From assembly GCA_028707085.1 (NCBI GenBank), contig JAQTUW010000024.1, positions 1-41,838 of the forward strand: 41,838 bases of DNA. Reading direction: 5' to 3'. The DNA is from Methylococcales bacterium (GTDB taxonomy: Bacteria; Pseudomonadota; Gammaproteobacteria; Methylococcales; Methylomonadaceae). The position numbers and the translations under genes were made by a program. The notes under the pieces were generated by a model. It was not told where the DNA came from, ran no database searches, and saw only the letters and a program-made list of their open reading frames with translations. Positions 9,033-39,036 of this stretch are shown here, one piece after another (the stretch's first letter is position 1; each line of letters begins with the position of its first letter).

Positions 9033-10112
9033 ATGTCCAGAATCCATAATTTTAGCGCCGGGCCGTCCATGCTGCCCGAAGAAGTGCTGCAACAGGCCCG
9101 CGAAGAAATGCTGGACTGGCGGGGCAGCGGCATGTCGGTCATGGAAATGAGCCATCGCGGCAAACAGTTCATGTCCATCGCCGCCGCCATGAAAAACGAC
9201 CTGATCGAACTGCTGGCCATCCCCGACAATTACCAGGTGCTGTTTTTACAAGGCGGCGCCAGCGCCCAATTTTCGCTGATCCCGCAATGCCTGCTCAACG
9301 GCAGGACGCAGGCCGCCTACGTCAACACCGGCTCCTGGTCTACCGCCGCCATCCGCGAAGCCGGCAAATACTGCCGGGTGCAGCTCGCCGCCAGCGCCGA
9401 AAGCAACCGCTTCACCCACATTCCGGCCTTCGCCGACTGGACGCTGGACGCCGACGCCGCCTATCTGCACTACACCTCCAACGAAACCATACACGGCGTG
9501 GAGTTTTCAGCGATACCGGAAACCGGCGACGTGCCGCTAGTCTGCGACATGTCCTCCAATATCCTCTCCCGGCCGGCTGACATTAGCCGCTACGGCCTAA
9601 TCTACGCCGGCGCCCAGAAAAACATGGGGCCATCCGGGGTCACGGTAGTCATCGTTCGCAACGACCTGCTCGACCTGGCCGGCGGCAGCGTACCGCCGGT
9701 ATTCGACTACCGCCAGCAAGCCGACGCCGACTCGATGCTCAACACCCCGCCGACCTATAACTGGTATCTACTCGGCCTGGTGCTGCAATGGCTGAAAACA
9801 CAAGGCGGCATCGCCGCCATCGAACAGCGCAATATCCGCAAAGCCGGCCGGCTATACCAGGCCATAGACGCCTCCGCGCTCTACAGCAACCCGGTCGATC
9901 CCGCCTGCCGCTCCAGAATGAACGTACCGTTCGTACTAGCCGACGCCGCCCTGGACAAAACCTTCCTCACCCAAGCCGAACAAAACGGCCTGGGCTCGCT
10001 ACAAGGCCACCGCTCAGTCGGCGGCATGCGAGCCAGCATCTACAACGCCATGCCCGAAGCAGGCGTAGACGCCCTAATCGACTTCATGGCCGAATTCGAA
10101 CGCACCCACTAA
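9033..10112 (+). CDS. serC: phosphoserine aminotransferase
   Basis: This 359-residue fold-type I PLP enzyme transfers the amino group from glutamate to 3-phosphohydroxypyruvate (serine synthesis) and also acts on the C4 hydroxy-oxo acid of pyridoxal phosphate synthesis. Visible motifs: N-terminal NFSAGPSMLP, FLQGGASAQF (about 71-80), CDMSSNILSRP and the PLP lysine 196 in YAGAQKNMGPSG. Length is full for the family. The ATG follows gyrA by 2 nt, with AGAGGA upstream. In many gammaproteobacteria serC is followed directly by pheA; here a 500-nt gap with a REP-like array intervenes. Confidence 0.98.
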   Translation: MSRIHNFSAGPSMLPEEVLQQAREEMLDWRGSGMSVMEMSHRGKQFMSIAAAMKNDLIELLAIPDNYQVLFLQGGASAQFSLIPQCLLNGRTQAAYVNTGSWSTAAIREAGKYCRVQLAASAESNRFTHIPAFADWTLDADAAYLHYTSNETIHGVEFSAIPETGDVPLVCDMSSNILSRPADISRYGLIYAGAQKNMGPSGVTVVIVRNDLLDLAGGSVPPVFDYRQQADADSMLNTPPTYNWYLLGLVLQWLKTQGGIAAIEQRNIRKAGRLYQAIDASALYSNPVDPACRSRMNVPFVLADAALDKTFLTQAEQNGLGSLQGHRSVGGMRASIYNAMPEAGVDALIDFMAEFERTH

Positions 10113-10131
10113 CAACCCCACCCCATAAACC

Positions 10132-10372
10132 CATAGGGCGCAATAGCGCCAGCGTATTGCGCCGCAAGGCAATAGCGCCAGCGTATTGCCCCGAACGAAT
10201 TGTCAAAAATTGCAAATTAAAACAGTTAAAAAAAGCATAGGGCGCAATAGCGCCAGCGTATTGCGCCGCAAGGCAATAGCGATAGCATATTGCGCCGCAA
10301 GGCAATAGCGCCAGCGTATTGCCCCGCAAGGCAATAGCGATAGCGCCAGCATATTGCGCCGCAAGGCTACCC
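10132..10372 (+). repeat. REP-like array A (serC-pheA gap)
   Basis: Two blocks begin with CATAGGGCGCAATAGCG and are joined by the linker (core TTGCAAATTAAAACAGTTAA). Within blocks the 29-bp unit alternates palindromic arms GGCGCAATA/TATTGCGCC with TATTGCC/GGCAATA. The centre of each hairpin loop (GCGNNAGCG) varies between copies. The array starts 20 nt after the serC stop. The rest of the gap (10373-10622) contains no supported gene. Confidence 0.9.
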
Positions 10373-10622
10373 ATGTAAAATACCCCCTCCCAAACAAAGC
10401 CGCAAAGCCCGACAAAACCATAACCCATTGATTATAATCGCAAGCCGGCTCCACAACGCCCCAGACCGGTTTCGCCACTTTACATATACCCGCCGCTAGG
10501 TAATCATAACCCAATTATCGAACGGCTTAAGCCCCAAATCGTCCACCGCTCCCAACCACACCCGGGACAAACGGACGACCCCGGGCGGCAACGGACTACC
10601 CCAGGAATAACCGCGACAGATT

Positions 10623-11708
10623 ATGACGACCATCATTCCACTTCCAGAATTAAGAGAAAAAATAGACGCCATCGACCGGCAAATTCTGACGCTGATCAAC
10701 CAGCGCGCGGAATGCGCCGTCGAAGTAGCCCGCACCAAGCAGGCGGCCGGCGAAACCGGCAGCTTTTACCGACCGGATCGCGAAGCCCAGGTCTTGCGCC
10801 GCATCCGGGAACTCAACCCCGGGCCGCTGGCCGCCGACACCGCCGCCCACCTGTTCCGCGAACTCATGTCCGCCTGCCTGGCGCTGGAAAAACCGCTGGA
10901 AGTCGCCTACCTCGGCCCGCAAGGCACCTTTACCCAGCAGGCGGTGCTCAAGCATTTCGGCCACGCCGTCAAAGACGTGCCGTTCGCCACCTTTCACGAC
11001 ATCTTCAAAGCCGTCGAAAACGGCCATTGCCAGTTCGGCGTCGTGCCGGTGGAAAACTCCACCGAAGGCGTCATCGCCCACACCCTGGACTTGTTCATGG
11101 ACTCCACCCTGCAAATCTGCGGCGAAGTGGAAATCCGCGTACACCAGAACCTGCTCGGCAAAATGGCCGCCATCGGCGAAATCAAGGAAGTCTACTCCCA
11201 CCAGCAATCGCTGGCGCAATGCCGGCAATGGCTGGCCGTCCGCCTGCCCGGCATACCCTGCACCGCCGTCAGCAGCAACGCCGAAGCCGCGCGGCTGGCG
11301 GCGGCCGACAGCCGCAAAGCCGCCATCGCCGGCATGGCGGCGGCCGAACTGTACGGCCTGAACAGCATCGAAAAAAATATCGAGGACGAAGCCGACAACA
11401 CCACCCGCTTTATCGTCATCGGCCAGCAACAGCCGGTCTCCACCGGCGCCGACAAAACCTCCATCCTGGTATCGGTGGGCAACCAGCCCGGCGCGCTGCA
11501 CAAAATCCTGGCCCCGTTCGCCGAATACGGCATCAGCATGACCCATATCGAATCCCGCCCCTCCCGGCAGGCGCTATGGGAGTATGTGTTTTTCATCGAC
11601 ATCGACGGCCACCGCGACGACCCCCAGGTCGCCAACGCCCTGACAGCCCTGCAAAACAACGTCAAAATGCTAAAGATTCTGGGTTCCTACCCCAGGGCGG
11701 TCATCTAA
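10623..11708 (+). CDS. pheA: bifunctional chorismate mutase / prephenate dehydratase (P-protein)
   Basis: This 361-residue enzyme converts chorismate to prephenate and then phenylpyruvate, the committed route to phenylalanine. Residues 1-90 are an AroQ-type chorismate mutase (LREKIDAIDRQILTLINQRA, then RPDREAQVLRR). Residues 92-268 are the prephenate dehydratase domain, with VPVENSTEG (142-149) and the catalytic TRF motif (261-263, NTTRFIVIG). Residues 278-355 are an ACT domain with GALHKIL (290-296) and ESRP (310-313), the phenylalanine-binding motifs for feedback inhibition. AGGAA lies rather far (about 16 nt) upstream of the ATG. The usual downstream partners hisC and aroA are absent; the next gene is convergent. 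Confidence 0.98.
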   Translation: MTTIIPLPELREKIDAIDRQILTLINQRAECAVEVARTKQAAGETGSFYRPDREAQVLRRIRELNPGPLAADTAAHLFRELMSACLALEKPLEVAYLGPQGTFTQQAVLKHFGHAVKDVPFATFHDIFKAVENGHCQFGVVPVENSTEGVIAHTLDLFMDSTLQICGEVEIRVHQNLLGKMAAIGEIKEVYSHQQSLAQCRQWLAVRLPGIPCTAVSSNAEAARLAAADSRKAAIAGMAAAELYGLNSIEKNIEDEADNTTRFIVIGQQQPVSTGADKTSILVSVGNQPGALHKILAPFAEYGISMTHIESRPSRQALWEYVFFIDIDGHRDDPQVANALTALQNNVKMLKILGSYPRAVI

Positions 11709-13319: not shown

Positions 13320-13621
13320 TAATTCACCCGATTTGAATTGTTATTAAGAATCTGGCTCATTAAATGAAACAAAGCCAGCACCCACAACTCTAACCCATGA
13401 CTATTACTAAATTATGAATACCCCAGCCGCCCATCGTTTATATTCCCGGCCACCCCCCCCTTTATATTCCATTAACATATTAACTATCAACAACCTAAAA
13501 ATGTTCCCGGAAACATTAAAACCAACCCCCCCGCCAACACAAATCTTTATTAACAAACATTTACAAACATTTACACTCCCCCCCCAAAAACCACCCAATC
13601 ATACGCCGCAATAACAAAGCA
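13320..13621. other. G-poor intergenic region with C-tracts and a palindrome
   Basis: No gene is supported. On the plus strand this stretch is nearly free of G from about 13477 to 13605 and contains three C7-C8 runs (13453-13460, 13526-13532, 13578-13585). An 18-bp near-perfect palindrome (AATGTTCCCGGAAACATT, 13499-13516) and a direct repeat of ACAAACATTT (about 13551-13572) also lie here. It is upstream of the 12504-13319 gene and may hold its control region. Confidence 0.5.
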
Positions 13622-13664
13622 CATTGCCCCGCACGAAAGCGTATTGCCCCGTAAGATCGCGCCC
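13622..13664 (+). repeat. REP-like element B, degenerate
   Basis: This is a single decayed copy: ATTGCCCCGCACGAAAGCG, then TATTGCCCCGTAAGAT and CGCGCC. It has the same orientation as the other copies. It lies in the gap before the MgtC-type gene. Confidence 0.6.
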
Positions 13665-13857
13665 AACAAATTCAAACAAATCCAAAAACCCGCCATTAAT
13701 ACCTGAAATGGGCTAACATATTGCTCGCCGGCTTAAACCTGCATTTAATGCCGATAAATGACAAAGTTCGCCCCTATAGCCAACCCCGAAACCCCGAACC
13801 TTGGCGGCGCTGCAATGCATCAAACAAACCGGACGCCCGCCGCCGGGCGGAGATCGC

Positions 13858-19727: not shown

Positions 19728-19767
19728 CCACAAAATCTCCTAAAAAATAACAACCCAACCCAATCAT

Positions 19768-19916
19768 GCGGCGCAATAGCGACAGCGTATTGCGCCGAAC
19801 AAATTTAAAAAAAAAGCATAGGGCGCAATAGCGTTAGCGTATTGCGCCGCAAGGCAATAGCGAAAGCGTATTGCGCCATAAGATTACGCCATAAGATTAC
19901 GCCATAAGATTGCCCC
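19768..19916 (+). repeat. REP-like array C
   Basis: Two palindromic blocks are joined by a shortened linker (AAATTTAAAAAAAAAGCATA). The right end carries three tandem copies of a 13-bp derivative, GCCATAAGATTAC. It fills most of the gap between the surface-protein and DUF3570 genes, in the same orientation as the other arrays. Confidence 0.85.
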
Positions 19917-19977
19917 AAACGACTGCCTCCATAAATTAACCAAACACTCAAAACACCTAGCCGCATAAAACGCCTCC

Positions 19978-22954: not shown

Positions 22955-23029
22955 ATTGATTCTCCAAGGTATTACATTTTCCTTTCAAGGCATTATTATT
23001 TTTTTATGCTTTTCCAACTATTCAAAACA

Positions 23030-23550
23030 TACGGCGCAATAGCGAAAACGGACTGCCCGAATGAGTAGGGATGACCAACCATGAAAGCCCATATCCATAG
23101 GGCGCAATAGCGCCAGCGTATTGCGCCGCAAGGCAATAACGAAAGCATATTGCCCCGCAAGGCAATAGCGATAGCATATTGCCCCGCAAGGCAATAGCGA
23201 TAGCGTATTGCGCCGCAAGGCAATAACGAAAGCATATTGCCCCGCAAGGCAATAACGAAAGCGTATTGCCCCAAACGAACAGTCAAAAATCGCAAATTAA
23301 AACAGTTAAAAAAAAGCATAGGGCGCAATAGCGACAGCGTATTGCGCCGCAAGGCAATAGCGCCAGCATATTGCCCCGCAAGGCAATAACGCCATCGTAT
23401 TGCCCCAAACGAACAGTCAAAAATCGCAAATTAAAACAGTTAAAAAAAAGCATAGGGCGCAATAGCGACAGCATATTGCGCCGCAAGGCAATAGCGCCAG
23501 CATATTGCCCCGCAAGGCAATAACGCCATAAGATTGCCCCAAATAGACGC
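23030..23550 (+). repeat. REP-like array D, downstream of the RAYT gene
   Basis: About 520 bp hold three to four blocks, each opening with CATAGGGCGCAATAGCG (the first of all with a degenerate form), with many 29-bp units and two almost identical linkers (GTCAAAAATCGCAAATTA plus an A-rich stretch). It stops within 5 nt of the RAYT stop codon. Loop variants include GCGCCAGCG, GCGATAGCG, ACGAAAGCG and GCGACAGCG. Confidence 0.93.
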
Positions 23551-23553
23551 AAA

Positions 23554-24090
23554 TCAACGCCGCTCCCCCGCCACATCAAAAAGGGGCAAGCTTGTCGCCC
23601 AATTGGCGGGATATAACCCCTGCTCGACATAGCGATGAAAAGTCGAATAAGGCCAATCCGCCACATGCGTGACCAAACCATGTTTAAGCGGATTGATATG
23701 GCAATAATCCAGATGCGCGGCATAATCGGCATCATCGACAATCAAATGTTCCCAAAAACGGCGTTGCCAAATGCCGCGTTCGCCCCTGGCGACCCGCACC
23801 GCAGACCGCCTTTCCGTCAGCGGCAACGTCCTGGAAAAACTTTGTTTAATCACCCGCCAGCGGTTGGCGTTATCAACATCGCCCTTGGGCAATGTCCAGA
23901 CGCAATGCAGATGATCGGGCATCACCACCCACGCATCGATATGAAACGGCCAGCGTTTGCGAGTATGCATAACCGCTTGGCGCAGGCTGTCGATATGACA
24001 AACCAAAAGATCGTTAGACTTTCTTTCCAAAAGATTAACCGTAAAAAAGTATGTGCCACCCGGAATGCGGTGGCGGCGATAGTCGGGCAT
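23554..24090 (-). CDS. REP-associated tyrosine transposase (RAYT, IS200/Y1-like)
   Basis: I chose ATG 24090 (MPDYRRHRIPGGTYFFTVNL), the normal RAYT start; an upstream TTG would add nine residues. The 178-residue protein is full length. It has the metal-binding HUH motif in VVMPDHLHCVW, the GIWQRRFWEH segment, and the helix with the candidate catalytic Tyr followed by a diagnostic tail: LDYCHINPLKHGLV, then DWPYSTFHRYV and GLYPANW. RAYTs are single-strand-specific Y1 nucleases that recognise REP palindromes and are thought to spread them. This one lies between arrays D and E of a palindromic repeat found at seven further places in the window, so the repeats are its likely substrate. All motif residues look intact. 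Confidence 0.93.
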   Translation of the reverse strand: MPDYRRHRIPGGTYFFTVNLLERKSNDLLVCHIDSLRQAVMHTRKRWPFHIDAWVVMPDHLHCVWTLPKGDVDNANRWRVIKQSFSRTLPLTERRSAVRVARGERGIWQRRFWEHLIVDDADYAAHLDYCHINPLKHGLVTHVADWPYSTFHRYVEQGLYPANWATSLPLFDVAGERR

Positions 24091-24171
24091 TTTTTTATAT
24101 TTATGCTGGTTGTACAAATTCAGGATTAATCAAATCATTCCAATAATTAATACCGGCTTTCCTTATATTAA

Positions 24172-24385
24172 ACATAGGGCGCAATAGCGCCAGCGTATTG
24201 CGCCGCAAGGCAATAGCGCCAGCATATTGCCCCAAACGAACAGTCAAAAATTGCAAATTAATAAACTCAAAAAAAGCATAGGGCGCAATAGCGATAGCGT
24301 ATTGCGCCGTAAGATTGCGCCGAACGAATTGTCGAAAATTGCAAATTGAAGTAATCAAAAAAAGCATATTACCCCGCAAACTTGC
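24172..24385 (+). repeat. REP-like array E, upstream of the RAYT gene
   Basis: Two blocks with 29-bp units and two linkers (TTGCAAATTAATAAACTC and TTGCAAATTGAAGTAATC versions) end in a partial copy, CATATTACCCCGCAA. Together with array D it brackets the RAYT gene. Confidence 0.9.
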
Positions 24386-26041: not shown

Positions 26042-26640
26042 CCATAGGGCGCAATAGCGCCAGCGTATTGCGCCGCAAGGCAATAGCGCCAGCGTATTGC
26101 GCCGCAAGGCAATAGCACCAGCGTATTGCCCCGCAAGGCAATAACGCCATCGTATTGCCCCAAACGAACAGTCAAAAATCGCAAATTAAAACAGTTAAAA
26201 AAAAGCATAGGGCGCAATAGCGATAGCGTATTGCGCCGCAAGGCAATAGCGATAGCGTATTGCGCCGTAAGGCAATAGCGCCAACGTATTGCCCCGCAAG
26301 GCAATAACCCCAGCGTATTGCGCCGCAAGGCAATAGCGATAGCGTATTGCCCCGCAAGGCAATAACGCCAGCGTATTGCCCCAAACGAACAGTCAAAAAT
26401 CGCAAATTAATAAAATCAAAAAAAGCATAGGGCGCAATAGCGATAGCGTATTGCGCCGTAAGGCAATAGCGCCAGCGTATTGCCCCGCAAGGCAATAACG
26501 CCAGCGTATTGCCCCGTAAGATTGCCCCGCAAGGCAATAACGCCAGCGTATTGCCCCGTAAGATTGCCCCGCAAGGCAATAACCCCAGCGTATTGCCCCG
26601 TAAGATTGCCCCGCAAGGCAATAACCCCAGCGTATCGCGT
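26042..26640 (+). repeat. REP-like array F, the longest
   Basis: About 600 bp hold three linker-separated blocks. Besides the 29-bp unit, 26505-26630 contains three tandem copies of a 42-bp higher-order unit (29-bp unit plus a 13-bp GTAAGATTGCCCC insert) that differ by only one or two bases. The first and second linkers are nearly identical. The minus strand is free of stops over long stretches, which yields frames of 90-150 codons made of repeated peptides; these are by-products of the repeat. Confidence 0.95.
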
Positions 26641-26800
26641 CGAATAAATTGATGAAAATCGCAAGTTAATAGGCATTAAAAATGCCAAAAATAAGGCATA
26701 TAACTCAAATAACCCTGTTTTGCGTGCTTTAACATAGTTTAATTAATAATATTTTCCATATGCCGTCAACATAATCATTACAAATCAATATATTAAAAGT

Positions 26801-28953: not shown

Positions 28954-29850
28954 ATGAATATGTCTGAAAAGTATTATTTTGTTGTTTTATCAATGCTGAC
29001 TCTGGCTTGCGGCTGCGCGGCCGGGCCGGACAGTCTGCATGGGGCGGCGGTTTTTGCCGAATGCCCGGTTACCGCCCCCGCCAACGACGCACAGGCAAAC
29101 CCCGCCGCCGCCTGCGCCGAACAGGTTTCCATATATGGCGACGCGGTGTGGGTGCCGGTTTTCGGCCCTTTATATGATGCGGCGGTAAACGAATCCCCGG
29201 ACAGCGAGCCGGGCCTGACCGTGCTGGCTACGCTATTGCCCGGCATAGGGCCGGCCTTGCAGACCGGACTGGGGGCGAAGCGCTGCCTGACAAAGTGCCT
29301 GCCGCCCGCCGCCGCGCAGGCCGACACCACGCAGACCAAAGCGTATTTCGATCTGGCGCTGGATGTGTCCGACGACAACTGCCGGCATTTTCTGGACACG
29401 CTGGACAGCGGCGAAACCGCAACCGCAGCGACCGTCGGCAGCCTGGGCCAGGGCCGGCTGGAAGCGGTGCTGATCGACACCATCCGCCAAAACCGGCGTC
29501 AGGCCCGGCAGATTTTGCAGCAAGCCAAACCCACAGCGGCGGAAGTGCAAAGCCTGATTGGCGCATACGACGGCCTATGCTCGCTAGAACACGCCCTGGC
29601 GACCCTGGAGGATGCGACCCGCAACCAGCTTTCCGGGAGTTTCACCAGCGACAAGGCGGAACAAAAAACCTGGCTGACGAAGTCCGGGATAACGGCGCAG
29701 AATACGGAAAGCGACGGAAAGCCCAAGGACAAGATCCGCCATATCAACAACATCCTCAAATCAACAACGCCCCGCTTACCCACCCCGACGCATGGCGGAA
29801 ACCCAGCAAACAAAAAACATAAAAATCAAAAAAAGCATAGGGCGCAATAG
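28954..29850 (+). CDS. lipoprotein of unknown function, 3' end made by a repeat
   Basis: I chose ATG 28954 (MNMSEKYYFVVLSMLTLACG), which places a lipoprotein-type signal at the N-terminus with the modified Cys at 19 or 21. The mature part is Ala-rich and helical, with paired Cys (CAEQ, CLTKCLPP, DDNCRHF). I recognise no family. The last residues (NKKHKNQKKHRAQ) and the TAG stop are encoded by the linker and first palindrome of array G, so the original C-terminus has been replaced or extended. Total length is 298 residues. Confidence 0.65.
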   Translation: MNMSEKYYFVVLSMLTLACGCAAGPDSLHGAAVFAECPVTAPANDAQANPAAACAEQVSIYGDAVWVPVFGPLYDAAVNESPDSEPGLTVLATLLPGIGPALQTGLGAKRCLTKCLPPAAAQADTTQTKAYFDLALDVSDDNCRHFLDTLDSGETATAATVGSLGQGRLEAVLIDTIRQNRRQARQILQQAKPTAAEVQSLIGAYDGLCSLEHALATLEDATRNQLSGSFTSDKAEQKTWLTKSGITAQNTESDGKPKDKIRHINNILKSTTPRLPTPTHGGNPANKKHKNQKKHRAQ

Positions 29851-30102
29851 CGCCAGCGTATTGCGCCGCAAGGCAATAACCCCAGCATATTGCCCCAAAC
29901 GAACAGTCAAAAATCGCAAATTAATAAAATCAAAAAAAACATAGGGCGCAATAGCGATAGCGTATTGCGCCGCAAGGCAATAACCCCAGCATATTGCCCC
30001 AAACGAACAGTCAAAAATCGCAAATTAATAAAATCAAAAAAAGCATAGGGCGCAATAGCGATAGCGTATTGCGCCGCAAGGCAATAGCGAAAGCCTATCG
30101 CG
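29825..30102 (+). repeat. REP-like array G
   Basis: Three short blocks each start with CATAGGGCGCAATAGCG and are separated by two nearly identical linkers (TCGCAAATTAATAAAATC type). The left edge overlaps the end of the lipoprotein gene; the right edge runs into the resolvase fragment (GCGAAAGCCTATCGCGC). Confidence 0.92.
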
Positions 30103-30830: not shown

Positions 30831-31181
30831 CTACCTTCCAAACCGCGTCCTACACTTGACAATATCCCTGACCGTAGACTTGCTGCACTCGAACTTCTCC
30901 CCCAATTGCGCATAAGTCACCACCCCGCCGTCGCCGTACAACTCCCGGATCAGCTCGCAATCCGCATCCGACAAAAACACCTTGGGATGCTTCTCGCCCC
31001 GCACATGCCCCGGCCTGACCGCCTTCGGCTGCGCCCACTCCGGGCGGTTCAGCGTAGACCAGGCGATCACCACCCAGTCGGCGCTGGGCCTGCCCAGCAC
31101 CACCTCGCCGGTGTTCAACAACAGCAGGCAATCGTAATGAATCGGCACCGGGTTGGTTTTGGCGCGTAACCACTCTATCAT
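30831..31181 (-). CDS. phage-type small protein with C-terminal HTH
   Basis: This 116-residue protein lies directly after the terminase large subunit gene (2-nt gap, same strand). The N-terminal half (LRAKTNPVPIHYDCLLLLNT) has no recognised fold. The C-terminal part (VVTYAQLGEKFECSKSTVRD) looks like a helix-turn-helix of the kind found in HNH-adjacent or regulatory phage proteins. It is the last recognisable prophage gene on this side; no portal or capsid genes follow. Confidence 0.55.
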   Translation of the reverse strand: MIEWLRAKTNPVPIHYDCLLLLNTGEVVLGRPSADWVVIAWSTLNRPEWAQPKAVRPGHVRGEKHPKVFLSDADCELIRELYGDGGVVTYAQLGEKFECSKSTVRDIVKCRTRFGR

Positions 31182-31183
31182 GT

Positions 31184-32704
31184 TTAAAACCTCTCAAAAG
31201 GATCGTGACCTATCGGTTGCCCCCGGCGCTCCGGTGGGCGGATGCCGGCGGATTTTTTAAATACCGGATACGCGAACGACAACGCCAGCGCATCGGCCTT
31301 GTTGGGGGAGGGCAGGCGGCGCTTCTTCATGTCCCGCTTACTCTCCAGTTGTATCTTGCCGTCCATGCGCGGCACGGTTTCCGGGGAAATCAGATCGGCG
31401 TACAGTTCCCGATCCTCCGGGATGCAGCCGCCGCTCTTCAGCCAGTCGCGCATCTGTTTCCACATCTCCGCCCGTTTATTCAAACATCCAGGATCAGCCG
31501 CCGCGCCGCCGAACCACACCAGCGTCCAGTCCCGGCCCAGCGTGCCGCCGGCGGAGACGATGCCGGTGCCGTAGCCGGCGTCCACGAATACCGCATCGGC
31601 CCGCTGCTCATCCTCGTGGCGGGCCAGAATGTTGGCGATATGGATATCGTTGTCATTTTTGGGGATGACGTTCAAAATTTTGAACAACAAACCCTGGCGC
31701 AAGGCGATGATCAACTGGTCGTCGCCCTCCCAGGCCGGGTCGCAGGTCAGAATTTTCGGCGCGAAATCGAACTGATCCAGCCGCAACGGCCGGCCGTAGG
31801 CGGCGTCGGCGTCGGCGGTGGCGATGAACTGCTTGCTGGACAGACTGGGAAAAACGCCGCGCACCCGGATTTTGACAAAATCCGAGTCCTCGCCATAATC
31901 GTCGATCCACTGTTGAATCTGCGCCTTGTTGGTGATGGCCACCCGGCGGCTGTCGATTTGCCGGGTCAGCCAGCGGTGACGCATGCCGTGGAAACATCTG
32001 TGAAAATCGCCGCTGTTGCGGGTGGGGTTGCCGAACTTGAAAAACATCGGTTCGCCGTCGGTCAGTCCGCCTTCGGCGACTTCGGCAATCGCATCAGGAA
32101 TGGCCGAAGCTTCGTCGAAAATGTAAAACGCTGTGGAATCGGCGGCGTGCAGGCCGGCAAAGGCTTCGGCGTTTTCCTCGCGACAGGTCTGGGCGCTGAC
32201 CAGCCAGCTTTCCGGGTGGTCAACATGGCAGATTTTCATCGCCCCTTTGCCGCTGCGGATGATCCACCAGTGGGCGGTGACGCTTTTTTTGCTCCATTTA
32301 CAGATTTCCGCCCAAGTCTTGCCGGCCAATTGCTCGCAGGTATTGGCGGTGACGATGCCTTTGGCGAACGGCCGGGTGGACATGATCCAGTTCACCAGCC
32401 AGGCGGTAATCGCGCTTTTACCAATACCGTGACCGCTGGCCACCGCCATGCGCACGGCGTCCACCGCATGAACGCCGTCGAAGCGGCGGCGTCTCACTTC
32501 CGCGCCCAATTGATCCAGAAATTCGCAAGCCCACAGGTCGGGGCCATACCGGCAGTTGAAGCGGTTTTGGTAAACCGCCTGTAGTTCGACGATCTGCAAA
32601 GCCGGGTCGCTGTCCCAGGGATAAGCGAACAGCACGAAGCCCAGTGGATCGGCGTAAAACCGCGCCATCCACCCGGCCAGTTCGGCATCCGCCCCCCCGC
32701 TCAC
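31184..32704 (-). CDS. terL: phage terminase large subunit
   Basis: This 506-residue packaging motor has a Walker A GHGIGKS (91-97), a Walker B FYIFDEAS (193-200, with catalytic Asp197-Glu198), and an RNase-H-like nuclease domain from about 315 with acidic motifs CDPAWEGDD (321-329), FVDAGYGTG (373-381) and NKADALALSF near 475. Full length for the family. The GTG start overlaps the stop of the small subunit gene by four bases (GTGA). The gene looks intact although the prophage around it is truncated. Confidence 0.93.
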   Translation of the reverse strand: MSGGADAELAGWMARFYADPLGFVLFAYPWDSDPALQIVELQAVYQNRFNCRYGPDLWACEFLDQLGAEVRRRRFDGVHAVDAVRMAVASGHGIGKSAITAWLVNWIMSTRPFAKGIVTANTCEQLAGKTWAEICKWSKKSVTAHWWIIRSGKGAMKICHVDHPESWLVSAQTCREENAEAFAGLHAADSTAFYIFDEASAIPDAIAEVAEGGLTDGEPMFFKFGNPTRNSGDFHRCFHGMRHRWLTRQIDSRRVAITNKAQIQQWIDDYGEDSDFVKIRVRGVFPSLSSKQFIATADADAAYGRPLRLDQFDFAPKILTCDPAWEGDDQLIIALRQGLLFKILNVIPKNDNDIHIANILARHEDEQRADAVFVDAGYGTGIVSAGGTLGRDWTLVWFGGAAADPGCLNKRAEMWKQMRDWLKSGGCIPEDRELYADLISPETVPRMDGKIQLESKRDMKKRRLPSPNKADALALSFAYPVFKKSAGIRPPERRGQPIGHDPFERF

Positions 32705-33273
32705 AGCTCACCCTCCACCGCGCCAACCTGATCAATAACCCGGCCTTCCTCAACATCTTCATCCGTCAGGCGGATGCGCTCCCGCCCGGCGCGGATCAGA
32801 TGCGACACCGAGGTCGTGATCTCCAGTTTTTCGTGAAGCAAGCCCAGATGCCGGGCCGCCAGTTCCAGTTGCTTGCCCTTGTCCCAGAATTTGACCAGCT
32901 TGGTCGTGCCGATCACCACGCCGTTGGTGTTCTTGACCTCCTGAACCCGGATGGACGCCACCGCCGCCGCCATATCCTCCGGCCAGTCCTGAATCGGCAA
33001 CAACGCGCCGTTGGCGTCGAACAGGCGGCGCGGATCGCAGAAGGCCAGGCGGGCGATTTCCAGCAGCACCCGATCCTGGTCGATTTTCACGCGTTGCATA
33101 CGGGTCGCCATGCCCGAGGCTATCGCCGCCTGGATGGCCGGGTTTTTAAGGAGGCGGCAAGGCGTGCTTTCAGATTTTGCGAGAATATAACCAGCACGGG
33201 TAGCCGCCTGCCGACCGTTCAGATCTATCAGATATTCATCGACAAAAGCCTGCTGTTTTCGAGTTAAAGCCAT
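32701..33273 (-). CDS. terS: phage terminase small subunit
   Basis: This 190-residue protein starts at ATG 33273 (MALTRKQQAFVDEYLIDLNG), the typical beginning of the Terminase_2 DNA-recognition domain; a GTG two codons earlier is an alternative. The helix-turn-helix region is QAATRAGY...ESTPCRLLKNPAI. The C-terminal part (EEGRVIDQVGAVEGEL) would contact the large subunit. The 4-nt overlap with the large subunit gene shows an operon. Confidence 0.88.
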   Translation of the reverse strand: MALTRKQQAFVDEYLIDLNGRQAATRAGYILAKSESTPCRLLKNPAIQAAIASGMATRMQRVKIDQDRVLLEIARLAFCDPRRLFDANGALLPIQDWPEDMAAAVASIRVQEVKNTNGVVIGTTKLVKFWDKGKQLELAARHLGLLHEKLEITTSVSHLIRAGRERIRLTDEDVEEGRVIDQVGAVEGEL

Positions 33274-33369
33274 AAACACAAAAATGGTTGATATGAACCG
33301 GATTCTACTGCATGACCGCCAAAACGCAACTGCCAGGTGCGGATGAAGCGCCGCTCGGCCTGCGCCGGC

Positions 33370-33639
33370 TCAAGCCGCCGCCGAATCGCCGGCGTCCCGT
33401 CGCAGCAACGGATATTTAACCTCGATGCGAAACCCCAGCCCATTTGCCCGCGCCCAGGCTTTAAGCCGGGCCGTGCTGACGGTGCGCGGCGGGCCGAACT
33501 GGCGGACGCCGTTGGCGTCCACCCCGATCACCAGCAGCCCCGGCAAAGCCCAGGCATCGATTTGCGTCGGACAAGCCAAAATAAAATGCCGGTCGCCGAC
33601 TATGGCCCTGCGCTGATACGGGTAATCCAGAGTTTCCAC
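33370..33639 (-). CDS. hypothetical phage protein
   Basis: This 89-residue protein uses a GTG start with a near-ideal ribosome site (AAGGAGATATACC) directly upstream. It contains VGDRHFILACPTQIDAWALP and a basic C-terminal half. I do not recognise the family. It lies on the same strand and 96 nt upstream of the terminase genes, as part of the prophage. Confidence 0.6.
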   Translation of the reverse strand: METLDYPYQRRAIVGDRHFILACPTQIDAWALPGLLVIGVDANGVRQFGPPRTVSTARLKAWARANGLGFRIEVKYPLLRRDAGDSAAA

Positions 33640-33761
33640 AGGTATATCTCCTTTTTCAATGTTCGCGATTCAAAAAACGGCACTCAACAACCGTTAATAT
33701 TTTCTATTACATAATGCGCCAAACAACACGCAATAACCCAATTTCAACACCAACCCACAAC

Positions 33762-34156
33762 ATAGGGCGCAATAGCGACAGCGTATTGCGCCGAACGGAT
33801 TGTCGAAAATTGCAAATTAAAACAGTTAAAAAAAAACATAGGGCGCAATAGCGAAAGCGTATTGCGCCGCAAGGCAATAGCGAAAGTGTCTTACGCCGCA
33901 AGGCAATAGCGCCAGGTATTGCGCCGAACGGATTGTCGAAAATTGCAAATTAAAACAGTTAAAAAAAACATAGGGCGCAATAGCGAAAGCGTATTGCGCC
34001 GTAAGGCAATAGCGAAAGCGTATTGCGCCGTAAGGCAATAGCGAAAGCGTATTGCGCCGCAAGGCAATAGCGAAAGCGTCTTACGCCGCAAGGCAATAGC
34101 GAAAGCGTCTTACGCCGCAAGGCAATAGCGAAAGCGTCTTACGCCGCAAGGCTATG
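33762..34156 (+). repeat. REP-like array H, inside the prophage
   Basis: Three blocks are separated by two identical-looking linkers (TTGCAAATTAAAACAGTTAA with an A-run). The last block has three consecutive copies of a derived unit with GCGAAAGCGTCTTACGCC replacing TATTGCGCC. It ends 1 nt before the stop codon of the gene at 34158. Its presence inside the prophage shows that at least this array arrived after phage integration or came with it. Confidence 0.93.
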
Positions 34157-34157
34157 G

Positions 34158-34604
34158 CTATCGTCCAAACCCTCGTGCCGCCAGCATCAACCGTCTGCGA
34201 TATTCCGCCTGTTCCGCCTCGCTCAACCGCCGGTAACTCAACTGCGCCGCCACGATGACCCGGAAACGCTGAATATCGTCGCCGCGCCACCAGATTTTGC
34301 TCTCGGCGGCCTTCAGCACATAACGCCGACAACGGTCGTCCAGCCGGATAAACTCTCTGGCCAGATACACCAGCCGCTCCGCATACGGCCAGCGAATATT
34401 ATCCTTGCCCAACTGTTTGGCCTCGCCCGGGCGCTGCGGCTCAAACGTTTGCTGCCAGAAGCGCAAGGCCGGGCAACCCTGCATGAATGGCAGCGGCAGC
34501 AACACCTCCGGCGCATAACCGGCGATATAATCCTGCAACGTTAGCCGCAGGCCGCCGGGGGCGTCAGTCTCAACGGCCGGGGCGGTCTTGAACTTTTTTG
34601 CCAT
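34158..34604 (-). CDS. hypothetical phage protein
   Basis: ATG 34604 (MAKKFKTAPAVETDAPGG) has AGGAG at good spacing. The 148-residue protein is Arg/Ala-rich with two amphipathic helices at the C-terminus (LSYRRLSEAEQAEYRRRLML). Its start overlaps the end of the replication-type gene by 35 nt. Function is not recognisable; position suggests an early phage gene. The stop abuts array H. Confidence 0.6.
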   Translation of the reverse strand: MAKKFKTAPAVETDAPGGLRLTLQDYIAGYAPEVLLPLPFMQGCPALRFWQQTFEPQRPGEAKQLGKDNIRWPYAERLVYLAREFIRLDDRCRRYVLKAAESKIWWRGDDIQRFRVIVAAQLSYRRLSEAEQAEYRRRLMLAARGFGR

Positions 34605-35403
34605 GATATTGCTCCTCGGCGATTTTGATGAATTTGGCCGGATGGATGATAAAATCAAAAGAAGCCAGAAATGGCGAACCATCCCGGCCACGGCTGCGGC
34701 CCATCAGAAAATCCGAACGGGCGATATGCCGGAAATAATTGCCCCAGCTTTCCAGGTCGTCCAGTTCGTCCGCCCACAAGGCCCGCATTTGCCGACGCCG
34801 GCTATCGGTTAGCTTGTAAACTCTGGGTAGCGTCGGCAGGCAGTCGTGGTACAAATCCACAATCGCCTGGTAAGGCGGCGCGACGACGGTGTTTGCGGCT
34901 CTGCCGTCAGGCAGGCTTGAATGATCCTGATTCCCGGTAAGCGGATGAGTGGGGTGGTTGGCCGTGGGCCGGGCAGCGGCGGTGACGGGCGGTATCGGCG
35001 CGCAGTCCGGGCCGGGCGCGGCCTGGATTGCGGCATGGCTGTCATGGGCCGGTTGCCGGGCGGTCATGGGGTGGTTGCCGGCGACGGATTTACCGGCATC
35101 GGCCAGCGGCAGAAAAAAAATCAGATAATCGGCGTCGGCGATTCGTTCTATCAGTCCGGCCCGTTTCAATTGTTCGATGGAGGCGCGGATACAGTCCTTG
35201 CTGGCTTTGGGGCGGATCTGCCGGTTTACGAACTCCTGTGCCGTCTCGGCCAGCATGCCCAGGCTGATGCGCCGGCAGGGGCCGCCGCAGACGCGACTGC
35301 CGTAATCCATGTAACGGCGGATGCCGCGCAGATAAATGACCTGCGCCCGTAAAGGCAGGCCCTGCAACGCGTCGTCTTCTTCATCATTCCATGAGGTGCG
35401 CAT
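34570..35403 (-). CDS. phage replication-type protein (winged-helix N-terminus)
   Basis: This 277-residue protein has an N-terminal region (about 1-105: LPLRAQVIYLRGIRRYMDYG, then CIRASIEQLKRAGLIERI) that reads as a winged helix. A Pro/Ala-rich linker (105-180) follows, then a C-terminal domain with LWADELDDLESWGNYFRHIA and SFDFIIHPAKFIKIAEEQYH. This last part is the common C-terminus of phage replisome-organiser or DnaT-like proteins. It is the first large gene of the leftward early operon, 300 nt downstream of the operator-containing promoter. Role at the phage origin is inferred. Confidence 0.65.
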   Translation of the reverse strand: MRTSWNDEEDDALQGLPLRAQVIYLRGIRRYMDYGSRVCGGPCRRISLGMLAETAQEFVNRQIRPKASKDCIRASIEQLKRAGLIERIADADYLIFFLPLADAGKSVAGNHPMTARQPAHDSHAAIQAAPGPDCAPIPPVTAAARPTANHPTHPLTGNQDHSSLPDGRAANTVVAPPYQAIVDLYHDCLPTLPRVYKLTDSRRRQMRALWADELDDLESWGNYFRHIARSDFLMGRSRGRDGSPFLASFDFIIHPAKFIKIAEEQYHGKKVQDRPGR

Positions 35404-35415
35404 CGCCGCTCCGCA

Positions 35416-35658
35416 TTACAATGGCCGCAGCAGCGGCGTTTTTTGACGTACCGGCCTGCGCCGGCTCTGACCGCCTGACGCCGTGTAGCAGCCTGCTAAA
35501 AAACCGCGCGATTTAGCCCCTGCAAAAAGGCCCGGCCGTAGCCGGGCAGTCAGGGCGGAAAACGTCGGCAGACTATTACCCCGGTCTGCTGGCGGGTTAA
35601 GGGCGGCGGCGAGACGGTAAACCCGCAAATACCGGTAAACAGCGACAGTGAGCAGCAT
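35416..35658 (-). CDS. possible small leader ORF of the prophage early operon
   Basis: From ATG 35656-35658 a frame of 80 codons (MLLTVAVYRYLRVYRLAAAL..., LFAGAKSRGFLAGCY) runs to 35416. Similar short frames with AGAKSxGFL segments occur upstream of phage replication genes, but there is no good ribosome site, and the frame runs through a strong terminator hairpin. It may be a leader peptide or only conserved RNA. Confidence 0.3.
   Translation of the reverse strand: MLLTVAVYRYLRVYRLAAALNPPADRGNSLPTFSALTARLRPGLFAGAKSRGFLAGCYTASGGQSRRRPVRQKTPLLRPL
35524..35546 (-). terminator. terminator/attenuator in the early leader
   Basis: On the minus strand a 6-bp GC stem CCCGGC/GCCGGG with a TACG tetraloop is followed by CC and T5. 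It lies between the early promoter (about 35700) and the first large gene (35403), so early transcription must pass it; this is the position of an antitermination-controlled terminator in lambdoid phages. Confidence 0.65.
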
Positions 35659-35703
35659 AAGATTTAGCGTAAAGCGCAATAAAAAATGAAAAAACACCTG
35701 CTA

Positions 35704-35732
35704 AATTTAGCGTAATGCTAAATATATTGCAA
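35704..35732 (-). promoter_or_regulatory. prophage early promoter with operator palindrome
   Basis: Reading leftward, TTGCAA (-35, 35727-35732) and TAAATT (-10, 35704-35709) are 17 nt apart. The spacer and -10 are covered by the palindrome ATTTAGC-N5-GCTAAAT (35705-35723). A further, less perfect site (ATTTAGC at 35662-35668) lies downstream, and a half site (TTTAGCAA) near 35747. The divergent repressor gene starts at 35797, so these are likely its operators. Confidence 0.65.
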
Positions 35733-35796
35733 GCTTTTTAACAATTTTAGCAATCCGCACATTTACATTTTGTTAATTGCTGCTTAAATACATGCC

Positions 35797-36543
35797 ATGA
35801 ACATGACCAATAAAGAAATCAGACTCCATAACCTGCAACGGCTGCTTGAGCATTCGGGGCTAAGCAAGACTGCGTTCGCCGTCAAGGTCAACACTTCGCC
35901 GGCCTATATCAGCCAGATGCTCAGCAGCAAGACCCGCCGGGCGATGGGCGAGCAGGTCGCCAGAGGCATAGAATACGCCTACGGCAAGCAGACCGGCTGG
36001 ATGGACGCCCTGCATCCGCCGGAAGAATATCTGCCGGAGACTGTGCGCCGTCCCAAAATTGAATCCAATGCCGAATGGTACGGCGGTTTCGAAATCATTG
36101 ACGACGATCAGCCGCCGGGCGCCGATGAAGTTTCGTTGCCATATTATAGGGAATTGGACATCGCCAACGGCCCAGGCCGAACCGAGGTGATCGAATACCA
36201 TCAACAAAAACAGCGGTTCGCAAAGTCCGTGCTAAAAGCCGCCGGCGTGCCTGCTGCCGCGGCCTTCTGCGCCATCATCTCCGGCAGTAGCATGGAGCCG
36301 GTGTTGCCGGAAGGCGCGACGCTGGGCATAGACACCAGCCGAACCACTGTGCGCGACGGCGAACTGTACGCCCTGGATCACGCCGGCGGCCTGCGGGTGA
36401 AGATCGTCTACCGCATGCCCGGCGGCGGCCTGCGCTTGCGCAGTTACAACCACGAGGAATGGCCGGACGAAAATTATACGGCCGAAGAAGCCGCATCCAT
36501 CAGAGTGCTGGGGCGGGTGTTCTGGTGGTCGGTGCTGCGTTAG
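35797..36543 (+). CDS. prophage repressor, XRE-type HTH plus S24 peptidase domain
   Basis: This 248-residue protein has a lambda-repressor-like helix-turn-helix in residues 8-60 (LSKTAFAVKVNTSPAYISQM). The C-terminal LexA/CI-like domain has catalytic Ser165 (ISGSSMEPVLPEG) and Lys202 (GLRVKIVY). An Ala-Gly bond occurs at 149-150 but is close to the Ser for a usual cleavage site, so self-cleavage is uncertain. The gene diverges from the early operon across a region with three ATTTAGC-type sites. Both domains look intact. Confidence 0.92.
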   Translation: MNMTNKEIRLHNLQRLLEHSGLSKTAFAVKVNTSPAYISQMLSSKTRRAMGEQVARGIEYAYGKQTGWMDALHPPEEYLPETVRRPKIESNAEWYGGFEIIDDDQPPGADEVSLPYYRELDIANGPGRTEVIEYHQQKQRFAKSVLKAAGVPAAAAFCAIISGSSMEPVLPEGATLGIDTSRTTVRDGELYALDHAGGLRVKIVYRMPGGGLRLRSYNHEEWPDENYTAEEAASIRVLGRVFWWSVLR

Positions 36544-38837: not shown

Positions 38838-38995
38838 CTGGGTATACTGCCTTTTTAACCGCGTATTGAAAAGCCTTTCTCAAGGGCTGAGCCGGAAGCC
38901 TCGATCTGGTTACACTGTATCAGGGCTACTGGCTGATAGTCTATATACCCTTCAAAAAACCTATTGTTGAAAATATGAATACGCGACAAGCCAAC
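38838..38995. other. gap upstream of the YkgJ gene
   Basis: No gene is supported here. The ribosome site of the GTG start is weak. This stretch and the 39037-39280 stretch would be the leader of any transcript from the promoter at 39283-39310. Confidence 0.35.
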
Positions 38996-39036
38996 CCATA
39001 GGGCGCAATAGCGAAAGTATAAAGTATATTGCGCCG
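38996..39036 (+). repeat. REP-like element I, single copy
   Basis: One CATAGGGCGCAATAGCG palindrome has an insertion in the loop (AAAGTATAAAGTATATTGCGCC) and ends CCGCATGGC. It has the same orientation as all the others. Confidence 0.75.

Follow-up and report, generated by a model that had tools for sequence, protein, structure and literature searches.

A RAYT gene among tandem arrays of ATAG-tagged REP-like hairpins in a Methylococcales bacterium

Pairing of RAYT genes with REP elements is known, with one RAYT for each REP family. In the 41,838-bp stretch of Methylococcales DNA analysed here (hereafter the window), a RAYT gene is bracketed by tandem arrays of a palindromic repeat. Is this repeat the substrate family of the neighbouring enzyme, and how did the arrays arise?

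The RAYT ORF occupies 23554–24117 of the minus strand and encodes 187 aa counted from TTG in the ORF listing. Translation more probably begins at the ATG at 24090 (giving 178 aa), because homologues begin with M[PS][DN]YRR in the alignment. The protein matched NCBIfam NF047646 (REP_Tyr_transpos) with E = 6.3e-59 (198 bits against a cut-off of 80), and a profile of nine RAYTs matched the E. coli TnpAREP structure 4er8 with E = 1.9e-62; a Pfam search at 1e-3 gave no match. Its HUH motif is MPDHLH (H69xH71), and the alignment showed that the catalytic Y138 and N142, equivalent to Y115 and N119 of E. coli TnpAREP, are intact, which confirmed an earlier note on this DNA that had described an intact Y1/RAYT protein with its HUH in MPDHLH. 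At the sequence level, this makes it a TnpAREP of the E. coli type whose HUH/Tyr site is intact. The E. coli residues reported to contact the tag of the hairpin include Q95, E100, H101 and R104 (PMC6006769, PMC8266576). Similar to the E. coli protein, to which the match is nearly full length, the enzyme retains W94, Q95, E100 and H101 (W117, Q118, E123 and H124 here), whereas V127 (numbered from TTG) stands at the position of R104.

Besides this gene, the genome holds two more matches to the RAYT, a distant one on contig C49 (29% identical) and a second RAYT on C21 (9013–9432; L002, L079; 63% identical), which is cut off by the contig end. The C21 RAYT keeps the arginine at position 104, and its adjacent palindrome has another sequence and a GTAG tag. 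Its REP family numbers 3 copies in the genome in a comparison count, so not every REP family here reaches a high copy number.

Seven arrays, 2,323 bp in total, were found in the window; two flank the RAYT gene and five lie elsewhere. The features are as follows.

23554–24090, minus strand: RAYT / TnpAREP gene, 178 aa from ATG, its ORF open to TTG at 24117
23098–23540, plus strand: array downstream of the RAYT gene, in which each of 3 ATAG-tagged canonical hairpins precedes derived units of 29 bp; two AT-rich tails
24173–24372, plus strand: array upstream of the RAYT gene, with 2 ATAG-tagged canonical hairpins, a derived unit and AT-rich tails
24173–24204, plus strand: example of a canonical unit with a C-ATAG tag (single-stranded DNA fold −11.5 kcal/mol, z −2.9)
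23029–23056, plus strand: degenerate half-palindrome (CATACGGCGCAATAGCGAAAACGGACTGC) at the left edge of the finding
10132–10367, plus strand: array between serC (9033–10112) and pheA (10623–11708)
13608–13672, plus strand: degenerate repeat remnant
19764–19922, plus strand: array with 2 canonical hairpins, one having CATGC for CATAG
26043–26660, plus strand: longest array, in which 3 canonical hairpins are accompanied by many 29-bp units and by a higher-order unit of 42 bp (29+13)
29836–30100, plus strand: array with 3 canonical hairpins and a 104-bp period
33761–34155, plus strand: array of 3 canonical hairpins in which the simplest unit, of 76 bp, occurs (hairpin and tail without a derived unit)
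38993–39025, plus strand: left half of a tagged unit, in degenerate form (CCCATAGGGCGCAATAGCG...)

Between the end of the left flanking array (23540) and the RAYT stop codon lie 13 nt; the right array starts with CATAG at 24173, 55 nt from the TTG and 82 nt from the ATG. Both arrays share one orientation. The earlier figures of seven other repeat places and about 2.4 kb of repeat were also fair, given five further arrays with remnants near 13.6 and 39.0 kb, and 2,323 bp in arrays plus remnants. Both the concentration of REPs around a RAYT and their clustering in tandem have been published before (PMC8266576, PMC3733652). At 26479–26635, the 42-bp unit (29+13 bp) is present in 3.7 copies with a 99% match and is apparently the youngest expansion. 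The array at 33.8–34.2 kb sits within a phage-like remnant (30831–36543) that encodes a small terminase (PF03592) and a Peptidase_S24 repressor-like protein (PF00717).

The canonical unit consists of C-ATAG followed by GGCGCAATA-GCGNNAGCG-TATTGCGCC. Folding of the unit as single-stranded DNA gave a 9-bp stem, an inner 2-bp stem and a 1-nt bulge; the palindrome stands directly 3' of the tag, and two canonical units had z values of −2.9 and −3.5. The y and z REPs of the E. coli REPtron are likewise hairpins with a bulge and a 5' tetranucleotide. In total, the window contains 18 canonical units (17 tagged CATAG and 1 CATGC), 38 derived 29-bp units and 11 AT-rich tails. The derived units start with GC-AAGGCAATA, carry the tag in 0 of 38 cases, with CCGC or CCGT at its place, and are missing part of the stem. 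Palindromic repeats in long tandem arrays, as described before, are thus present, but most units (38, against 18 canonical ones) are untagged, shortened derivatives. The order within an array is a canonical unit, then 29-bp units in any number including none, then an AT-rich tail and the next canonical unit. The shortest repeat period is 76 bp (hairpin and tail, at 33.8 kb), further periods are 104, 132–134 and 220 bp, and one array has the 42-bp unit. In large GTAG REP clusters, singletons or dimers are described as tandemly repeated with flanking DNA (Di Nocera 2013, PMC3733652); the arrays here are tandem as well but form a three-level repeat of tagged unit, untagged 29-bp derivatives and AT-rich tail.

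All tagged canonical units in the window (17/17) and all derived units (38 plus, 0 minus) lie on the plus strand. The window therefore has no inverted pair of close REPs, as in a REPIN, and no regular alternation of orientation, as in a BIME, since one orientation runs across all of its arrays. Outside the window, one inverted pair of tagged units was found, on C2. A CRISPR-like array was ruled out, as the 29-bp units abut without spacers; cas genes were looked for only by Pfam scans of selected ORFs. No match of the window to an Rfam family reached gathering score, so a known structured RNA was ruled out. Coding repeats were ruled out too, the many minus-strand ORFs over the arrays being an effect of stop-free 29-bp units. 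Long array ORFs such as RRNTLSLLPCGAIR... on the minus strand exist only since the 29-bp unit is without a stop, and they may get annotated as hypothetical proteins.

The array sizes are read from a draft assembly, of which the window is one entire contig (C20), and an artefact of assembly or contamination has to be weighed. The genome (3.016 Mb) is in 73 contigs, repeats by contig ends are hard to assemble, and C12 has an N gap. With a completeness of 99.89 and a contamination of 0.31, gyrA, serC and pheA on the same contig as the arrays, a single match to pheA in this genome, and repeat units that vary among themselves instead of being identical copies, we regard such an artefact as very improbable.

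The pattern GGCGCAATA-N9-TATTGCGCC matched the window 26 times at up to 3 mismatches, 18 of them exactly, against a mean of 0.06 in shuffled sequences. The genome-wide count proposed in the earlier note gave 28 exact palindromes and 32 with up to 1 mismatch, and 0 for the reversed-pattern control. The window, a 41.8-kb contig, holds 18 of these 32, where 0.44 would be expected. After copies were merged into sites by hand, 7 of 18 sites fell in this 1.4% of the genome (expected 0.25, p = 2.8e-9). Single tagged copies occur on nine other contigs, and a second cluster, with tandem 28/29-bp units and a run of N inside, was seen on C12 (23142–27164; L078). REPs are usually present in over 100 copies per genome (PMC2817692); the 32 genome-wide copies at up to 1 mismatch fall below that number. 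In Marinomonas MWYL1, REPs are concentrated by their tnpA, which its authors read as recent arrival and local multiplication (PMC8266576). Similar to the repeats of its REPtrons Ma and Mb, those of the window lie near their own RAYT gene; Ma and Mb have a GTAG tag, and the accessible portion of PMC8266576 does not mention composite arrays, whereas the window has ATAG and composite arrays.

The array between serC and pheA bears on when the repeats arrived. Here the two genes are separated by 513 bp, with the 236-bp array in the interval (10113–10622), whereas all 29 same-genus loci examined, out of 36 other genomes, show a spacing of 4–14 bp and no hairpin. The composite 146-bp stretch was matched beyond its palindrome (in the tail and 29-bp units) in 0 of 36 other same-genus genomes, and in its palindrome part only in 12 of 36; in some genomes, this search scored 23 of up to 40 candidates. 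This gap, together with the tail and 29-bp units left unmatched in those 36 genomes, points to a recent acquisition of the arrays in this lineage. Both observations fit arrival by RAYT action or by duplication alike and cannot tell the two apart.

Duplication could have acted alone. An ordinary REP may have been duplicated by replication slippage and recombination into a selfish or passive minisatellite, with the RAYT uninvolved in the present arrays. The 29-bp units without a tag (0/38) and without part of the stem would fit such a history, as would higher-order periods of 76, 104, 132–134 and 42 bp that resemble tandem duplication, and the placement of every unit on one strand. It covers growth inside arrays, but neither the tagged units found at seven distinct sites spread over 24 kb nor the single copies on other contigs, each of which begins with C-ATAG or a near variant, and we consider it unlikely. 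Less probable still is that the hairpins are kept for a host function, such as transcription end, mRNA stability or binding of gyrase or IHF, with the RAYT as a domesticated manager or neutral neighbour. The hairpins are intergenic, and roles of this kind have been published for REPs (PMC2817692, PMC3733652); however, no Rfam family reached gathering score in the window, and the serC–pheA array is missing in relatives and is therefore not an old host element at that place.

Comparison with relatives ties the palindrome to the RAYT. A RAYT homologue is present in 127 of the 151 genomes of the family sample. Two RAYTs that are 79% (L050, in genome G053) and 81% (L052, in G050) identical to that of the window have the GGCGCAATA/TATTGCGCC palindrome on both sides, as does the window RAYT; their flanking copies are inverted and carry GTAG tags, unlike the two arrays in the window, which point in the same direction. 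Since RAYTs of 79–81% identity have the same palindrome on both sides, the pairing is, as far as sequence comparison goes, inherited. This supports the earlier claim that the RAYT is embedded in its probable REP-like substrate family. Other RAYT clades have other palindromes, for example with GTCCGATTA or GTACGATTA arms. Among 49 RAYT loci of 10 kb or more, 54 tagged palindromes were counted within 450 bp of the RAYTs (44.1 kb) and 9 at a distance of 2–4.3 kb (132.3 kb).

Whether the repeat follows the RAYT clade from genome to genome, as the earlier note had proposed, depends on the pattern searched in the 151 family genomes. Of the 13 genomes whose RAYT is at least 69% identical, 12 contain the broader tagged palindrome (TAGGGYGCAATA..TATTGCRCC), compared with 36 of the 138 remaining ones (p = 3.7e-6); the exact N9 palindrome shows no significant co-occurrence (3/13 versus 13/138, p = 0.14). 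Abundant repeats without a RAYT of the clade, named earlier as evidence against the proposal, were in part found: one genome (G124) has 20 copies of the broader tagged pattern, and its best RAYT among the matches listed is 54% identical. Such hairpins can outlive or lack a near RAYT, or be served by another RAYT. At another locus of G050 (C35, 8897–9315; L427, 598–1016), a relative in the same family, a 140-bp unit with GTAG-type palindromes is repeated 3.0 times, each copy including part of the upstream sequence. Similar to the arrays of the window, it consists of tandem palindrome-bearing units; it differs in its GTAG-type tags and unit sequence, and no 29-bp expansion was seen in it.

The tag of the window family departs from the REP definition, which is GT[A/G]G plus a palindrome (PMC3686654); no change in GTAG is reported to be tolerated in the E. 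coli REP (PMC8266576). Of the 31 strict-pattern copies of this genome, 29 have A at position −4, 2 have C and none has G, so that none begins with GTAG or GTGG, and 30 have C at position −5; the conserved start is thus C-ATAG, also at single copies in unlike surroundings. The earlier description of the repeat needs correcting here, as ATAG rather than GT(A/G)G is the tag in 17 of the 18 canonical units. E. coli combines R104 with GTAG, and the window combines V127 with ATAG.

To relate tag and residue, the flanks of 251 RAYT loci were scanned for palindromes that adjoin xTAG or GTGG and whose arms have a length of 8 or more, and 230 RAYTs were kept after 8 short and 13 duplicate proteins were dropped. 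The tags over these loci were GTAG (265), ATAG (63), GTGG (8), TTAG (4) and CTAG (4), the last two being at the chance level of the scan. RAYTs with arginine at position 104 comprised 93 G-only, 3 ATAG-only, 3 mixed and 74 with none; those with another residue comprised 20 ATAG-only, 15 G-only, 2 mixed and 20 with none (Fisher p = 1.9e-11). Five loci whose ATAG hairpin is chance-like and unlike a REP were relabelled by hand (L161 and L222 from ATAG to none; L113, L144 and L243 from mixed to G), which left 96 G and 1 ATAG with arginine, and 15 G and 20 ATAG without. With these hand-edited labels, position 104 ranked first of the alignment columns scanned (p = 2.6e-13; next column 2.7e-6), and positions 100 and 101 were also in the top five. 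The sole exception to the tag rule, L265, has arginine at 104 together with REP-like hairpins tagged ATAG and TTAG. Losing R104 does not suffice for ATAG, because GTAG is found at 15 of the 35 non-arginine RAYTs whose tag is clear. An additional, class-wide set of 83 RAYTs (87 less 1 short and 3 duplicates) had 41 G-only and 3 ATAG-only loci with arginine and, among only 7 non-arginine cases, 1 ATAG, 1 mixed and 1 G. The direction was the same, with p = 0.17 for the raw count, which retains three arginine loci with ATAG hairpins unlike REPs (L344, L354, L363), and p = 0.09 for REP-like hairpins.

The link between tag and residue might also reflect shared ancestry only, a few RAYT clades happening to have both ATAG and a non-arginine residue. 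The tag label is clustered on the tree. A tree built without columns 125–130 gave 8 tag changes in its best form, an argument for repeated change; at least 3 changes are forced by supported branches, and these could be one gain and two losses. Independent pairs on supported branches number only 3 (sign test p = 0.25). Nine near-neighbour contrasts, chosen by eye with the labels already seen, gave 8 for the tag rule and 1 against (next best column net 4). In the plain scan as well as in these contrasts, position 104 comes out ahead of every other column, and it is a known tag-contact residue (PMC8266576, PMC6006769). On this evidence, we doubt that ancestry alone accounts for the link. ATAG was seen in the clade of the window, in a second clade of the same family (in which E100 is replaced by A) and in several Xanthomonadaceae-group RAYTs. 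The tag rule thus appears strong in one direction, arginine going with GTAG, and weaker when taken as a switch, GTAG being retained at 15 RAYTs that lack the arginine. The occurrence of ATAG with loss of the arginine suggests a simple recognition rule.

We consider it likely that the locus represents a REPtron, made up of a RAYT (TnpAREP) gene and a REP-like hairpin family of its own, in which the enzyme spreads ATAG hairpins near its gene, the change of R104 to V explains the tag, and the untagged units grew later. This is argued by the match in family and fold, the same palindrome at RAYTs of 79–81% identity, the enrichment near RAYT genes (54 versus 9), the local expansion (18/32), the uniform C-ATAG start, the acquisition in this lineage and the tag rule; it is weakened by the non-arginine RAYTs with GTAG, by the few independent pairs on the tree, by G124, with its many related hairpins without a near RAYT, and by the two flanking arrays pointing the same way, unlike those of L050 and L052. 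The RAYT would act on the palindromic repeat and cut it: it would bind the folded single strand, read ATAG and the stem and nick beside it, and nicking would spread tagged hairpins, mostly near its own gene. ATAG would be read in place of GTAG owing to V127 at the site of the tag-contact arginine. The 38 untagged 29-bp units and AT-rich tails may have arisen later by tandem duplication of a tagged unit, and they are probably not substrates themselves.

A literature search covering mainly open papers returned no ATAG-tagged REP class and no link to position 104; ATAG was sought at the start of words, so ATAG inside longer strings would be missed, and in this form it is absent from the accessible text of PMC3733652, PMC2817692, PMC3686654, PMC8266576 and PMC12306157. 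We give an even chance to a broader proposal, that ATAG hairpins are a REP class of their own, reached several times in Methylomonadaceae-type and Xanthomonadaceae-type genomes through a joint change of residue 104 and tag. The switch would separate two RAYT systems in one cell, a notion prompted by the presence of a V/ATAG and an R/GTAG RAYT in this genome, and the switched system would then have been amplified locally, with one array splitting serC from pheA.

The serC–pheA array is a natural example of how a REP-like array can come to lie between two closely spaced genes. Recognition of a REP family by its RAYT, and with it the reason for private hairpins in each RAYT lineage, was dissected for only three RAYT/REP pairs in PMC8266576. 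A natural ATAG class tied to one contact residue would offer a direct test of RAYT recognition. ATAG hairpins would also widen the definition of REPs, and searches that require GT(A/G)G would miss them.
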